Source of the DNA: Streptococcus suis
Lineage (GTDB): Bacteria; Bacillota; Bacilli; Lactobacillales; Streptococcaceae
Assembly: GCF_019856455.1 (NCBI RefSeq)
Contig: NZ_CP082205.1
Coordinates: 1,178,001-1,242,000 of the forward strand
Direction: 5' to 3'
DNA length: 64,000 nt
In this document: piece by piece, positions 2,023-37,556 of the stretch
Position numbering within the stretch: the stretch's first letter is position 1
Layout: each line of letters begins with the position of its first letter
Program-made: the position numbers and the translations under genes
Notes under the pieces: model-generated
Told to the model about the DNA's origin: nothing
The model's input: only the letters and a program-made list of their open reading frames with translations
The model's database searches: none

Positions 2023-2148
2023 AAATCTATTATACGTTAGTTTTTGTTTTTTGAACAGTATAACTTTCAGACAAGGAGCTGAGGCGCAGGCTATACTAAA
2101 GTATGGCAAGGCGAAAGCGACGATGTATCAAAGTTAATTCAAATGACT

Positions 2149-2523
2149 GATATGTAAAGCCCTTTGTCAAGTAAAAACAATCGAACTGATAAAAAAATGA
2201 AAAGTATCTAGAAAGAGCCTAGTTCTTAGCTTCGGGCATTGGCCACTCTGATATTCGTGGATTGGTTACCTACAGGTCAATGGTTCTGCCGCGAGTCCTA
2301 CTCTCTATAAGCGTGGATCACAATTGTGCCACTTAGTCGTTTCGTAGATGACTCAAACCTTGAAGTCCTAAACTCCTTCAAGATACTTTCCATTCAAACA
2401 TGATTTCAATCCTTATTTCTGTCCAAATTCACCCAGTGATTTTGGATAGAAATAGGGATTCCTCATCGCTCTGCGATGATAAAACTTAATGGTCAAAAGT
2501 GTACATGAAAACAAGCGCTAACT
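2149..2523 (-). ncRNA. Putative bridge/seek RNA region of IS110 copy 1
   Basis: This non-coding end lies downstream of the recombinase on the same strand. As RNA it folds into several hairpins: a long one at 2406-2460 (AATCCCTATTTCT arm), CTTGAAG/CTTCAAG near 2360-2384, and GTGG/CCAC near 2312-2333. One four-pair stem (CCAC/GTGG, 2243-2260) exposes the loop GAAUAUCAGA. Its AUAUCAGA is complementary to TCTGATAT, the sequence formed when the two element ends join around the CT core. AGUCAU (2353-2348) and GACUA (2338-2334) can pair with opposite strands of the target motif ATGACTAT. This is the arrangement known for bridge RNAs; the call here is inference from sequence. Confidence 0.65.
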
Positions 2524-3645
2524 TCAAGCTATTCTTCCTGTCATCATCCCCCAAATAAAACCAGACAATTCTCGTGCAATAGCTGTTTTAGCAACATTTT
2601 GTTTCTTATTTTTTCCTAGAACAAGTGTGCGATAACGTCTTCTTAAGCGTTCATTAGCCTTATCCGCATAAGCAATCACCTCCACTCGGTTTCCACTTTG
2701 TCTCCTTTTCAATTCTTTGGATTTATACCCAATCGTCCCCTTAGCCAATGATTGTGCAGCTTCTATCAGAAGTCGTCTCACATGGCTATTCCCAGCTTTG
2801 GTGATAGCACCTCTTCTCTCCTTGTCGCCGCTAGAATTTTCGCTAGGAGTTAGCCCAAGATAAGAAGCAAAATGTTGAGCTGTCGCAAAGCGATTAAAAT
2901 CACCGATTTCTGTCACAATGGAAAGAGCAGTTAGTGTTTTAATGCCAATAAAGCAAGAAAGCCGTGAGACCTTCTCTTGGTAACTGTCGCTTTGACCCAG
3001 TTGCTCAATTCGTGCATCATACCGTTCTATTTGATCTACTAATTTCTCATAGGTCAATAGATATTCTGTCAAAATCTCTGCATAAAGTCCATCAGGATTT
3101 AGGGAACGGAGCCAGCGGACATGTTTCTGTGTCCAATTACTGCTTCCCTCGGTATAGCGAAAATCATGTCGGAGACAGAAGGCAAGAATTTGTTGTTTGA
3201 TTTTCTTCAGAGCCACTTTGTGGTCTGTTCTCATGCGGATATATTCTTTGACTTGTTCATCCTCAACAGTAGGAATATGAACAGGCCGATAGCTACGAAA
3301 GGCCAGAGCTTTTGCGAGCTGAGCTGCATCTTTTTTATCAGTCTTAACACGCTTAGATCCTTCCTTCATCACCGTTGTAGGCGCCATCACGATACAGGGA
3401 ATCCCGTGAGCTTGTAGCTGGTGATATAGGGTAAATCCAAGACATCCGGCTTCGTAGCCACATAACACTTCTGCATCTTGACCATATAAACGACGAAGCT
3501 CATTCACATAGTTCACAATATAGCTAACATTTGGACCAACTTTAGTGCTATGTTTGAATTGATTGGTCATCATATCATAATAGCAGAGTGAAAAACTTTC
3601 TTTGTGAACATCCATTCCGATGAAAAGTGTGGTAAAATGAAACAT
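2524..3645 (-). CDS. IS110-family DEDD recombinase (transposase), copy 1
   Basis: A 373-residue protein with the IS110 architecture. The N-terminal RuvC-like domain has Asp12 (GMDVHKES), Glu65 (GYEAG) and Asp103/Asp106 (KTDKKDAAQL). A coiled linker lies around residues 140-220, and the C-terminal Transposase_20-type domain has GIKTLTALSIVTEIGD and the K-x-G-N-S motif with the presumed catalytic Ser288. The start ATG at 3645 follows GGAGGT. The family recombines an excised circular element with target DNA under guidance of an RNA encoded in the element. All catalytic motifs are intact. Copy 2 differs by one residue (Thr to Ala in the DMMxNQF segment). Confidence 0.95.
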   Translation of the reverse strand: MFHFTTLFIGMDVHKESFSLCYYDMMTNQFKHSTKVGPNVSYIVNYVNELRRLYGQDAEVLCGYEAGCLGFTLYHQLQAHGIPCIVMAPTTVMKEGSKRVKTDKKDAAQLAKALAFRSYRPVHIPTVEDEQVKEYIRMRTDHKVALKKIKQQILAFCLRHDFRYTEGSSNWTQKHVRWLRSLNPDGLYAEILTEYLLTYEKLVDQIERYDARIEQLGQSDSYQEKVSRLSCFIGIKTLTALSIVTEIGDFNRFATAQHFASYLGLTPSENSSGDKERRGAITKAGNSHVRRLLIEAAQSLAKGTIGYKSKELKRRQSGNRVEVIAYADKANERLRRRYRTLVLGKNKKQNVAKTAIARELSGFIWGMMTGRIA

Positions 3646-3762
3646 ATAAGACCTCCAATTGAGTGTGGTAATTCCTGTTAGAAGTTGATTGTTTTTTTAT
3701 TCTAGTGTACAGGTAAATCCACGAATTCTCAACTGGGGGTCTTTACATATTGTCTATGTAAT

Positions 3763-3867
3763 CAATGACCAAGTGGCACAATTGTGATCCACGCCTATAG
3801 AGAGTAAGATAGGACTCGCGTCAGGACCATTGACCTGTAGGTAACCAATCCACAATATCAGAATGGG
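3763..3867 (+). repeat. Solo fragment of the IS110 non-coding RNA region
   Basis: This stretch is a diverged copy, in opposite orientation, of the non-coding core 2236-2343 of the adjacent IS110 element. It shares AGTGGCACAATTGTGATCCA, GAGTCC/GGACTC blocks and ACCTGTAGGTAACCAATCCA. The donor-guide-like segment ATATCAGA is conserved, while the flanking stem has decayed from four to three pairs. A small insertion follows the TATAGAGAGTA block. No recombinase sequence accompanies it. Confidence 0.8.
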
Positions 3868-3931
3868 CATGCAACTAGAAAAAAGTTACATGCGTCTTTT
3901 CGCGTATGTTGCGGAAAATGGAAGATTTTAC

Positions 3932-4077: not shown

Positions 4078-7000
4078 ATGCATCATTCTAGAAGTAAATC
4101 TTTTGACTGGTACGGATTGAAACAGCACTTCTCAATTCGTAAATACCACTTTGGTGCTGCTAGTGTCTTACTTGGGATGTCATTGGTTATGGGGGCTGGT
4201 GCGCAAACTGCTCAAGCAAAAACAACCACTGCAACAACAGGAGCAACAACACTAGCTTCATCAACAGAGGTTGATCCGTCAACAACTACTGAAGCATCAG
4301 CGACAGAAGCTACACCAACTACTGCCTCGACAGAAGTAGCAACTGCAGAACGTACAGCGACTATTGAATATACTGTTGAGTACCAAGATGAATCAGGGAA
4401 AGTTGTATCATCAACTGTTAAGTCAGTTGAAACGAAAACAACAGATACAATTGCTATTGCAATCGTTACTGAGTCAGCAATAGTACCTGAAGGTTATGAA
4501 CTAGCTGCGAATGAAACGGCAACAGCTACGACGGGAGTTATAGAAGCTGGTCATTCAAAAGTTGTCTTCAAAGTTGTGAAGAAAGCTGAAGAAAAAGCGG
4601 CAACTTCTGAAACTACTACAACAGCTTCAACAGAAACAGCAACTGCTAAATCAACAGAAGGCGCAGCTACAACAACTGCAACAGTTTCTGAAGCTGTAAA
4701 AACACCTGCTACCGTAGAAGAAGCAAAAACTGTTCTTGAGCAAGTAACTTCAGAAGCAGAAGTTTTGGCAAATGAATCTGAACGCCTTGTAGCTGCATCT
4801 GACAAGGAAAATACAGCCTTGAAAGCAGCTGCTGCAGCGACTAAATTAACTGCAACACAAGCAACTGCAGTCTTGAAGGATTCAGTAGCGACACTTGAGG
4901 AAGTAAACGCTCAAATCAGTGCAGTTCGTATAAACGTAGAAGCTCTAGTCTTAGAATTGCGTAAGTACTTGGGGACAGATGTTATCGAAATCGCTCTGAA
5001 TACTTCAATTTCAAATTTGAATGTTACTGAGGGAAGTGGTCTACTCGTAGCAACTACTTCAACAGCGACACCGTCTATGGAAGACCCGCATGGAGCAACT
5101 GTTGGAAGACATGAACTTCCTACTGGTACCGCCGCAACAACTGAGAAAGGATGGTACACGTTTGGAGCGTATGATTTGAGATCATATAACACTAACCAAG
5201 CAGGTTCAGTAGTTGGAGGGGCTGCAGTTCCAGCGTATATTCGCTATTCTTTGGATGGAGATTCGACAACAACAACGGTTCTCGCTGAATTAGTAAGTAC
5301 CACGGACGGACAAGTATTGGAAAAGGTTACAATTGAGCCAGGTGCTAGCGTGGAACTTACTTATCCGACTACATTCAATGCTAAAAATCAGGCTGTAACA
5401 TTATTCTATGATACTTCAGAAGCAGTTGAGGGCGGAGTTTCAGGGACAATCAAATTTAATGTCAAGGAAAAAAATTCTGGTGTAGATACTTATAGTACTA
5501 CTTATGTTCCTCCGTATCTTGTAAATACTACTCGTTATGTGACTGAGAACGGAGATTTAATCGCGACTTATAATGTCCAAACTATTTCTGGACAACCCGT
5601 GACATCTTCTGGTCAACGTGAATTTACGGGTGTAGAGTATGTAAGTCAGTCGATTGAGGTTGCCGATAGTATCTATCCAAAAGGTTCAACATCTGTTGCA
5701 GCTACATATGACCTTGGCAATGCAGTAAAAGTTAAAGTTATTCGAGAAGTAGTTGACCATGGAAAAATGACCTTGACTTTCTATGTGACAGATCCGTCAT
5801 ATACTAAATCGTATGATTTAGTCACTACAGATACGACAGGATTTTTACCAGTATTTCAGACTTCCGAATTGACACACCGTGTTGGTAATACTTATGTGTA
5901 TAATAAGAATCAAAATTTCATCGGAAACTATATCACTGACCCTAACGATCCAACTGGTTCCAGAAAGATTTACGCGGTAAGTGCACAAAATGATAAAGGT
6001 AGTATGTATCGTATAGTTGCTAATTTTTCAGGTGATGATACTACTGATGGTCCAAGTGGTAGATTATATTTATCGACTGAGGTTTGGACAACAGCAACAA
6101 ATGGCGTAGATGATAAAGATTTTTCTTGGCGTACTGGTCTTGTTGGAGATCCTTACGCTAATAAAGGTTACACACCTGGTGGGCGTCAAAATATTCTCCG
6201 TGTTGGTACAACTGCTTCTGCCAATCAAATCACATACATCTATCGTGCACTTGCACAAGAGGCTATCATCCGCTACAAAGTTGAAGGTGCGACAGATTAT
6301 TTGGAAGATTCAGGTACCTTGACTGGTGGTTCAGGAACAGATATTAACTATTCAACTGAAGACACAATTAATAAGTATAAAAAATTGGGTTATGAGCTTG
6401 TATCTGACAATTTCACTACTGACGCTGGTCAGGATTACGACTACGACACATCAGTTAGACAAGAGTTTTTAGTAGTTATCAAGCCTCGTGTCGTTGACGT
6501 TCCTAAAGGCGTTGTACCGAGAAAACCAGTGGATCCAGCAGATCCAAACTCACCAGTATGGCCAGATACAGTAAAAAATCAGGAAACTACCCAAGCAGTA
6601 ACGCGTACTGTTGAGTACAAGTATGAAGATGGAACACCAGTCCGTATAGATGCGTCAGGTAATATCTTGCCAAAAGACTCTACTGAGGGTACACCACTTG
6701 TTAAGACTCAAACAGTAACCTTTACTCGTCCAGCTCAAGTTAACCTTGTTACAGGTGAGATTACTTATGGTGAATGGTCAGCAGATTCTACAGATGTTCT
6801 AAGTGGTAACTTGATTCCAGAAATCACAGACTATACTGCAACTCGAACGACTCTTGAAGGTGCAGATGCTCCAATGATTGAATCTGTTACAGATAAAACA
6901 GTTGTTGCAACAGATGCGGACATCAATGAGGTCGTTTACTACACACCAAATCCTAAGTATGGTGATGTAGTTGTAAATTATGTCAATACAGACGGAAAAG

Positions 7001-34942: not shown

Positions 34943-35317
34943 GATATGTAAAGCCCTTTGTCAAGTAAAAACAATCGAACTGATAAAAAAATGAAAAGTA
35001 TCTAGAAAGAGCCTAGTTCTTAGCTTCGGGCATTGGCCACTCTGATATTCGTGGATTGGTTACCTACAGGTCAATGGTTCTGCCGCGAGTCCTACTCTCT
35101 ATAAGCGTGGATCACAATTGTGCCACTTAGTCGTTTCGTAGATGACTCAAACCTTGAAGTCCTAAACTCCTTCAAGATACTTTCCATTCAAACATGATTT
35201 CAATCCTTATTTCTGTCCAAATTCACCCAGTGATTTTGGATAGAAATAGGGATTCCTCATCGCTCTGCGATGATAAAACTTAATGGTCAAAAGTGTACAT
35301 GAAAACAAGCGCTAACT
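34943..35317 (-). ncRNA. Putative bridge/seek RNA region of IS110 copy 2
   Basis: Equivalent to 2149-2523 in copy 1 and apparently identical. The loop complementary to the end-to-end junction is at 35041-35050. See copy 1 for structure and guide-like pairings. Confidence 0.65.
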
Positions 35318-36439
35318 TCAAGCTATTCTTCCTGTCATCATCCCCCAAATAAAACCAGACAATTCTCGTGCAATAGCTGTTTTAGCAACATTTTGTTTCT
35401 TATTTTTTCCTAGAACAAGTGTGCGATAACGTCTTCTTAAGCGTTCATTAGCCTTATCCGCATAAGCAATCACCTCCACTCGGTTTCCACTTTGTCTCCT
35501 TTTCAATTCTTTGGATTTATACCCAATCGTCCCCTTAGCCAATGATTGTGCAGCTTCTATCAGAAGTCGTCTCACATGGCTATTCCCAGCTTTGGTGATA
35601 GCACCTCTTCTCTCCTTGTCGCCGCTAGAATTTTCGCTAGGAGTTAGCCCAAGATAAGAAGCAAAATGTTGAGCTGTCGCAAAGCGATTAAAATCACCGA
35701 TTTCTGTCACAATGGAAAGAGCAGTTAGTGTTTTAATGCCAATAAAGCAAGAAAGCCGTGAGACCTTCTCTTGGTAACTGTCGCTTTGACCCAGTTGCTC
35801 AATTCGTGCATCATACCGTTCTATTTGATCTACTAATTTCTCATAGGTCAATAGATATTCTGTCAAAATCTCTGCGTAAAGTCCATCAGGATTTAGGGAA
35901 CGGAGCCAGCGGACATGTTTCTGTGTCCAATTACTGCTTCCCTCGGTATAGCGAAAATCATGTCGGAGACAGAAGGCAAGAATTTGTTGTTTGATTTTCT
36001 TCAGAGCCACTTTGTGGTCTGTTCTCATGCGGATATATTCTTTGACTTGTTCATCCTCAACAGTAGGAATATGAACAGGCCGATAGCTACGAAAGGCCAG
36101 AGCTTTTGCGAGCTGAGCTGCATCTTTTTTATCAGTCTTAACACGCTTAGATCCTTCCTTCATCACCGTTGTAGGCGCCATCACGATACAGGGGATCCCG
36201 TGAGCTTGTAGCTGGTGATATAGGGTAAATCCAAGACATCCGGCTTCGTAGCCACATAACACTTCTGCATCTTGACCATATAAACGACGAAGCTCATTCA
36301 CATAGTTCACAATATAGCTAACATTTGGACCAACTTTAGTGCTATGTTTGAATTGATTCGCCATCATATCATAATAGCAGAGTGAAAAACTTTCTTTGTG
36401 AACATCCATTCCGATGAAAAGTGTGGTAAAATGAAACAT
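35318..36439 (-). CDS. IS110-family DEDD recombinase (transposase), copy 2
   Basis: The 373 residues are identical to the copy at 2524-3645 except Ala for Thr at residue 27 (DMMANQF). All DEDD residues (Asp12, Glu65, Asp103, Asp106) and Ser288 are kept. Its ATG at 36439 follows GGAGGT and the gene points away from the interrupted aldolase body. Few silent differences separate the copies, so one probably arose recently from the other or both from a common active source. Confidence 0.95.
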   Translation of the reverse strand: MFHFTTLFIGMDVHKESFSLCYYDMMANQFKHSTKVGPNVSYIVNYVNELRRLYGQDAEVLCGYEAGCLGFTLYHQLQAHGIPCIVMAPTTVMKEGSKRVKTDKKDAAQLAKALAFRSYRPVHIPTVEDEQVKEYIRMRTDHKVALKKIKQQILAFCLRHDFRYTEGSSNWTQKHVRWLRSLNPDGLYAEILTEYLLTYEKLVDQIERYDARIEQLGQSDSYQEKVSRLSCFIGIKTLTALSIVTEIGDFNRFATAQHFASYLGLTPSENSSGDKERRGAITKAGNSHVRRLLIEAAQSLAKGTIGYKSKELKRRQSGNRVEVIAYADKANERLRRRYRTLVLGKNKKQNVAKTAIARELSGFIWGMMTGRIA

Positions 36440-36482
36440 ATAAGACCTCCAATTGAGTGTGGTAATTCCTGTTAGAAGTTGA

Positions 36483-37556
36483 TTGTTTTTTTATTCTAGT
36501 GTACAGGTAAATCCACGAATTCTCAACTGGGGGTCTTTACATATTGTCTATAACAAAGGTGCCCATCCCGCCTTGCTAGAAGCCTTAGTTGCAAGCAACC
36601 AAGAAGGTTTATCTGGATATGGCACTGATAAATATACTGAATCTGCTATCAAAAAAATCAGACTTGCTACGGACTGTCCTCATGCACAAGTTACGTTTTT
36701 AGCAGGTGGCACGCAGACCAATCAAATTGTTATCTCTTCTATGTTGGATTCTTATGAGGGAGTTATTGCTGCAGATACAGGTCACATTTCTATCCACGAA
36801 GCAGGAGCAATTGAGTTCACAGGGCATAAAGTAATGACTTTGCCACATCAGGAAGGTAAAATTACAGCGAGTGACGTGGATAGCTTTATCAATGACTTCT
36901 ACGCAGATGCCAATCATGCTCATATGGTTCATCCAGGAATGGTTTATATTTCCCACCCGACTGAATACGGGACACTTTATAGCAAGTCAGAGCTGGAGGA
37001 CTTAGCAAAAATCTGTCGCAAGCACAATATTCCGCTCTTTTTAGACGGTGCTCGTTTGGGATATGGACTTGTCTCACGCGATACAGATCTTGATTTGCAG
37101 GCAATAGCAGAGCTGACAGATGTTTTTTATATTGGTGGGACAAAACTAGGTGCCTTGATGGGTGAAGCTTTGGTCTTCACAAAGAACAATCAGCCAAAGA
37201 ATTTCGTATCAATTGTCAAACACCATGGTGCCTTGTTGGCAAAAGGTAGATTGACAGGTGTTCAATTTGATAGACTATTTACCGATGGTTTATATCTTGA
37301 ATTGGGGCGTCATGCTATCGCAATGGCAGAGCAACTGACCCAGATTTTGGAAGAGAAAGGTTTCCAGTTCTATCTCAAATCACCAACTAATCAGCAGTTT
37401 GTTATTGTTAAGAATGAAGAATTGACTAGATTGACAGAAACTGGAATTGCCTATAGTTTCTGGGAAAAATATGATGATAGCCACAGTGTTATCCGCTTTG
37501 CGACCAGCTGGTCAACCAGTCAAGAAGATATAGATGAGTTAAGAAAAATACTGTAG
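36483..37556 (+). pseudogene. Threonine aldolase family PLP enzyme, 5' end replaced by IS110 sequence
   Basis: From the codon TAT at 36549 the frame encodes a nearly complete low-specificity threonine aldolase/beta-eliminating lyase: YNKGAHPALLEALVASNQEG, TFLAGGTQTNQIV, ISHPTEYGTLYSK, LDGARLGYGL and the PLP-lysine motif YIGGTKLGALMGE. The enzyme splits threonine to glycine and acetaldehyde. The native first seven codons and ribosome site lie beyond the IS. The frame remains open into the IS end, back to a TTG at 36483, giving a 22-residue foreign N terminus without a good Shine-Dalgarno. Expression is therefore doubtful but not excluded. Confidence 0.85.

Follow-up and report, generated by a model that had tools for sequence, protein, structure and literature searches.

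The stretch of DNA analysed here, which we call the window, covers 64,000 nucleotides of a Streptococcus suis genome. It carries a complete insertion sequence of the IS110 family with its recombinase gene, a non-coding region that encodes a predicted RNA, subterminal inverted repeats, and the remainder of a small repeat at the insertion site (Table 1). The sequence-only reading had given the element a length of 1607 bp and a CT core, and both are correct: CT (AG in the orientation of the recombinase) is common to the two edges, at 2147-2148 and 3754-3755. In recombinase orientation, the left end starts with AGACAATATG, the right end finishes with CATATC, and the core AG comes next. The 2.56-Mb genome holds at least 40 full-length copies (40 of 70 candidates were scored), and their outer ten bases are the same in 40/40 of the copies examined at one end and in 39/40 at the other, where L040 is one base off. 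The fact that copies of the same genome have these bases in common indicates that the element ends are real. The window itself contains a second copy (34943-36549, locus L006), which has the same orientation and is identical at 1603 of 1607 bases.

Table 1. Features of the element, its predicted RNA and its insertion site (positions are those of the window)
Feature	Position	Strand	Details
IS110-family element, whole	2149-3755	minus	1607 bp; identical ends across the full-length genome copies examined (L040, see text)
Recombinase (transposase) gene	2524-3645	minus	373 aa; DEDD type, IS110 family; Pfam, NCBI model, and alignment
Subterminal inverted repeat, right end (recombinase orientation)	2150-2159		10 bp
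Subterminal inverted repeat, left end (recombinase orientation)	3741-3750		10 bp
Predicted bridge/seek RNA	2221-2370	minus	Match to model R1, ends approximate; 28-pair consensus from 59 relatives
Putative target guide T	2335-2342	minus	RNA AAACGACU, complementary to top strand, AG + right target half
Putative target guide B	2305-2311	minus	RNA CUUAUAG, complementary to bottom strand, left target half + AG
Candidate 5' donor guide	2275-2283	minus	RNA CCAUUGACC, partly complementary to left end (AGACAAT); weak
Putative 3' donor guide	2247-2254	minus	RNA AUAUCAGA, equal to right end + core + 1 base of the joined ends
Conserved left-end 12-mer	3712-3723	minus	CGTGGATTTACC, reverse complement of GGTA + AATCCACG of the RNA donor stem
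Remainder of RUP-like repeat	2061-2148		Repeat tip AGTCATTT (recombinase orientation) is the insertion site

The recombinase carries both PF01548 (DEDD, RuvC-like) and PF02371 (C-terminal), which places it in the IS110 family, and the NCBI IS110 model NF033542 scores it at 219 bits against a cut-off of 140. Residues D12, E65, D103, D106, and S272 are invariant among the recombinases in a 16-row alignment, and we take them to be the DEDD and SG residues of the enzyme. The only solved chains that match the protein at an E value of 0.01 are those of IS621 and ISCro4, over about 100 residues. The layout is of the IS1111 type, as had been proposed from the sequence: the longer non-coding region lies 3' of the recombinase gene, and the inverted repeats are subterminal. 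These repeats are perfect over 10 bp here and measure about 9 to 16 bp in the relatives where they were found. IS1111 repeats are usually 11 to 13 bp long, with 7 to 17 bp given in the available part of Durrant et al. (PMC11208160), so the present ones fall just below the usual length and inside the wider range. According to the accessible text of PMC11187229, the terminal extensions beyond the repeats are 7 bp on the left and 3 bp on the right in IS1111 elements, occasionally 6 and 3; here they differ, being about 5 and 1, or 6 and 2 in the class of relatives whose right end reads ATAAC. The same text gives a motif GL-P----S(T)G, which GLTPSENSSG in the present protein fits, and a length of 330 to 350 aa, which the 373 aa found here exceeds.

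The core AG is present at 40/40 insertion sites examined in the S. suis genome. In the left half of the target, A at -2 occurs in 40/40 sites, T at -1 in 39/40, and T at -3 in 36/40; the right half reads, in order, T (30 of 40), C (28), A (24) or G (9), T (31), T (31), and T (27). The resulting consensus is TTAT-AG-TC(A/G)TTT (core between hyphens), from 40 sites that are not all independent, since L026 and L028 have the same left flank. The element is found most often at the tip of a repeat of about 106 bp with inverted ends, which we take to resemble the RUP repeat of pneumococci. The element or a remnant of it lies within 300 bp, on the repeat side, at 13 of 17 RUP-like left ends chosen out of a pattern search. 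The RUP-like repeat in the window also houses an IS630-type element (about 960-2063, in the segment 960-2148). Its transposase is broken into two reading frames (987-1484 and 1510-2109), and the genome has at least 23 long copies of it with 96-100% identity (40 of 88 candidates were scored).

The idea that the non-coding end encodes a guide came from an eight-base match. Joining the right end ...TTGTCT to the left end GATATG... does yield TCTGATAT, and the same bases do occur on the plus strand at 2247-2254, between CCAC (2243-2246) and GTGG (2257-2260). As evidence by itself, however, the match proves little, because 172 of 2000 dinucleotide-preserving shuffles of the non-coding end, taken without its last 25 nucleotides, had a match of at least eight bases (longest exact match, on either strand, to the stretch across the core). 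It could be argued that the match is coincidental and that the region is either an untranslated tail or some regulatory RNA with no part in recombination. This would agree with a match that is within chance and with the Rfam result, where no family reaches its gathering score over the predicted RNA; the sub-threshold hits fall at 2381-2522, mostly on a separate hairpin, and belong to unrelated families. Two further lines of evidence, the fold of the RNA and its match to the insertion sites, go against coincidence.

The first was obtained from relatives of the element, which came from the best 80 of 290 loci in a scan of named genomes, from viral contigs, and from genomes of the same genus and phylum. 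A match was present in 13 of 147 genomes of the same genus and in 16 of 398 of the same phylum, the own genome being counted in each case. The nearest named relatives lie in contigs of S. azizii and S. suis and in a phage of S. suis. In 104 loci, relatives and copies together, the predicted RNA was identified 3' of the recombinase gene. An alignment of 59 distinct 3' regions (205 columns; L155, which has a deletion, was omitted from the 60 prepared) gave an RNAalifold consensus of 28 pairs, 15 of them with changes on both sides. Paired cells made up 96.9% compared to 91.1% in shuffled alignments, and there were 111 both-side cells compared to 28; none of 500 shuffles was as high. Shifting the partner by one to three columns lowered the paired cells to 36-50%, a control that favours the consensus fold over the shifted versions, since one alignment served both to derive the fold and to count its pairs. 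A nine-pair stem, with both-side changes at all nine pairs, closes the target loop. The donor part of the RNA is more conserved, with strong variation at one upper-stem pair only.

The second and strongest evidence that this is a guide RNA is the match of the target guides to their own flanks. Neither target guide in Table 1 was part of the sequence-only reading. The T guide was read as the bases before a CTATGT-like motif and the B guide as the bases between CACG and AGA, and each was compared with its own flank. This covered the 104 RNA-bearing loci, although the B guide could not be read in 2 of them and the T guide in 5 others. Each distinct guide entered once, with its first flank, missing or too short flanks were excluded, and at least one guide misread by the pattern (L145) was kept. 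For 53 distinct T guides, the mean match to the own right flank was 4.42 of 6 bases beyond the core, compared to 1.82 with swapped flanks. For 36 distinct B guides, it was 3.28 of 5 bases on the left flank, compared to 1.46. No shuffle out of 10000 reached the observed value for either guide. Against the reading, 5 of the 53 T guides match poorly (0-2 of 6), one of them being misread. The target guide changes with the target, as in bridge and seek RNAs. Together with the covarying fold, this tracking of the flanks by 53 and 36 distinct guides largely refutes coincidence, which we regard as hardly credible.

An S. azizii element whose recombinase is 94% identical at the amino acid level has a different T guide, which predicts AGTTTATT, and its actual site is AGTTTATC. 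As judged from guide and site, this represents natural retargeting between close relatives. The guide of the present genome, AAACGACU, would best fit AGTCGTTT, with G as the fifth target base, yet this base is G in only 9/40 sites and A in 24/40, which speaks against the guide reading. Two of the four copies read in the sister genome G109 (L045 and L072) carry AAATGACT, in agreement with A. In six of the 40 copies (L012, L019, L021, L023, L024, and L031), the element is succeeded by a 3' remnant of itself that starts at an internal AG; the remnant of L024 is below the 60-base cut and was judged by eye. In L012, the internal AG where the remnant starts is the B-guide DNA itself. Insertion of the element into itself is to be expected, as the guide-encoding DNA half-matches the target, and the remnants may have arisen by such an insertion followed by homologous deletion. 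Tandem remnants of the 3' end, with duplicated RNA copies, are found at L031 and at L202 (G000 377500-381000); at L202 the rest of the element has no match within the 3.5 kb around the locus.

Regarding the donor side, the sequence-only reading had proposed a guide for the joined ends and had set beforehand the test that elements with different termini should show matching changes in the loop. Such changes were found. Relatives with the loop ATATCAG have the end ATATC-AG, and those with ATAACAG have ATAAC-AG. This holds in 70 of 71 distinct recombinase rows on a first tree of 80 rows (both traits in 71) and then, with divergent relatives added, in 85 of 86 on a second of 95 rows (both in 86), an agreement that is statistically much weaker than the figure sounds because there are only one or two independent switches. 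The first tree requires at least one change in the loop and two in the right end, and the second at least two and three; the extra right-end change is that of L098. A single ATAAC clade is compatible with the data (the tree keeping the clade together scored higher; p-AU 0.685). Many independent donor switches were considered and rejected, as the trees have only one or two. Deeper relatives add few events since their readable loops are mostly ATATC again; the exception is L214, with CTATC against an end ATATC, a one-base disagreement that lies outside the 86 rows. Also outside the second-tree count are L167, L218, L233, L234, and L236, which agree as far as they were read. L046 has the loop ATATT and the end ATATC, possibly a wobble pair, and was scored as agreeing in a two-state coding that grouped it with ATATC; in L210 and L235, the base after CA is unequal between loop and end. 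The sole disagreement among the 86 rows is L098, which combines an RNA of the ATATC type with ends of the ATAAC type on either side, and whose T guide matches its own flank at only 2/6. The simplest reading is that L098 would be a hybrid copy moved by the RNA of another element. The correspondence between loop and right end is real, though it rests on few events, and it supports the reading of this loop as a donor-binding guide.

The candidate 5' donor guide tends to follow the left end, with ATTG in the RNA for CAAT in the end, ATTA for TAAT, GATAA for TTATC, and CGTAA for TTACG. Its mean longest match was 3.78 with the own left end and 2.92 when left-end classes were swapped (4 of 5000 as high), in 27 distinct pairs and 10 left-end classes, one of which (L140) was probably misread. 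There is little match in L207 and L208, and L141, L142, and L150 depart from the pattern. This guide is short and has no clean pairing across the core; among the four guides it is the weakest. The donor guides change with the ends as those of a bridge RNA do, the 3' guide in one or two switches and the 5' guide more weakly.

Because loop and right end changed jointly only once or twice, common descent explains most of their agreement. It is conceivable that the RNA guides only the choice of target, as in the published account of IS1111 seekRNAs, that the recombinase recognises the ends through the subterminal inverted repeats, and that the donor match is inherited or structural. With 10 bp in this element and as much as 16 in relatives, the repeats are long, and their sequence is likewise associated with the loop class; moreover, an 82-nt RNA of ISEc11 was sufficient in the available text of Siddiquee et al. 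2024 (PMC11187229). On the other hand, in both classes one strand of the internal loop is an exact match to end plus core, over 10 left-end classes the strand facing it tends to change with the left end, and donor complementarity has been predicted in IS1111 members, going by the accessible part of Durrant et al. 2024 (PMC11208160). We therefore consider recognition of the target alone quite unlikely.

The donor guide had also been placed in a ten-base hairpin loop closed by CCAC and GTGG. The two arms are present in the window sequence, but the fold is disfavoured. In the consensus, CCAC of the RNA pairs with an upstream TGTxGG strand and GTGG with an upstream CCATT, so the 3' donor guide would form one side of an internal loop. 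A guide RNA that works as proposed but presents its donor guide in the local hairpin is unlikely: the four hairpin pairs form in 97.5% of the cells, yet among the 59 relatives none of them has both-side changes and two of the four break, in 4 and 2 rows, and the single-sequence fold of the window RNA does not contain the hairpin. In the alternative upper stem, six both-side changes fall on a single pair, which is modest evidence. Both folds could exist, at different steps.

Taking together the ends, the target consensus, the covarying fold, and the correspondence of guides with targets and ends in relatives, we estimate a probability of about 0.92 that this IS110-family element of IS1111-type layout uses an RNA from its 3' end to recognise both its joined ends and its target. 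The 3' non-coding end would be transcribed in the direction of the recombinase gene into a bridge/seek RNA of about 100-150 nt with two internal loops. The DEDD recombinase would hold this RNA and exchange strands at the AG core, and a circular form of the element would insert into sites like the consensus, with no duplication beyond the core. Joining of the ends would bring together a TTGACA box and, 17 nt downstream, a GACAAT box, and this spacing suggests that the circle probably drives expression of recombinase and RNA. In 54 of 65 distinct junctions, a right-end TTGAC(N) lies 17 or 18 nt before a left-end (G/T)AnA(A/C)T box, a count that reflects conservation rather than independent cases since the junction sequences are related. 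Junction promoters are known in the IS110/IS1111 families (available text of PMC11187229).

A possible additional role of the RNA concerns the 12-mer near the left end. Among relatives of at least 44% identity, 42 of 46 distinct left ends have it, 35 in the exact form and 7 as variants, at a distance of 30-34 nt from the tip. In the RNA, GGTA and AATCCACG flank an insert of variable length. There is no covariation between 12-mer and donor stem: the commonest combination is CCACG in the RNA with CGTGG in the left end (full 12-mer, 22 rows), and the variant rows are CCGCG with CGTGG (5), CCACG with CGCGG (4), and the matched CCGCG with CGCGG (1). Column information inside the motif is circular, because the motif served as anchor. 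By eye, the 12-mer often lies between TTGTAG-like and TATACT-like boxes ahead of the recombinase gene. The RNA, or its complex with the recombinase, might bind the 12-mer and repress the recombinase, or the 12-mer in the transcript might keep the RNA inactive until processing; we consider this idea doubtful. If such repression were true, it would keep the copy number of the element in check. In the accessible literature on the IS110 family and bridge RNA, we found no work combining the IS110 family with autoregulation.

The element is most likely a further example of the bridge-RNA elements described in 2024, acting through its own small RNA. ISEc11, ISPa11, ISKpn4, and ISPst6, the IS1111 elements with seekRNAs in the available text of PMC11187229, share with it the 3' non-coding region, the subterminal inverted repeats, a specific target, a T guide 5' of the B guide, the GL-P----SG motif, a promoter at the joined ends, and natural retargeting between close relatives. 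In the present RNA, too, the top-strand target guide lies 5' of the bottom-strand guide. That account describes target matches, whereas here a donor guide is evident as well. The bridge RNA of IS621, in the part of PMC11208160 at hand, has the same target and donor loops with two guides each, including the core, and works with a DEDD recombinase of the same family. In contrast to IS621, the present RNA lies at the 3' rather than the 5' end, its top-strand guide comes first, and the inverted repeats are long. The same source predicts bridge RNAs of IS1111 orthologues that are likewise right-end RNAs with target and donor complementarity; in many of these, the donor bases lie in a multi-loop, whereas a simple internal loop is favoured here. 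Among the titles seen on the IS110 family and on S. suis insertion sequences, none was about this element. With it, the bridge-RNA recombinases gain a natural family that is well sampled and has many target guides, two donor-end classes, and one mismatched hybrid, and this combination makes donor recognition in the presence of long inverted repeats directly testable. Since this streptococcal element is directed mostly to the tips of a small repeat, it is also a compact candidate recombinase with readable rules.

Immediately outside the element, on the plus strand at 3756-3889, lies an orphan and partly decayed copy of the RNA, with 88% identity over about 107 bp and a model score of 63.8 bits. 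At the same locus, it is about 98-99% identical in L201 (G109) and L179 (G015; first part missing), and G015 has no recombinase match at 1e-10. The orphan copy has lost the target-loop stem and retains AUAUCAGA, and it is located upstream of a large surface-protein gene at 4078.
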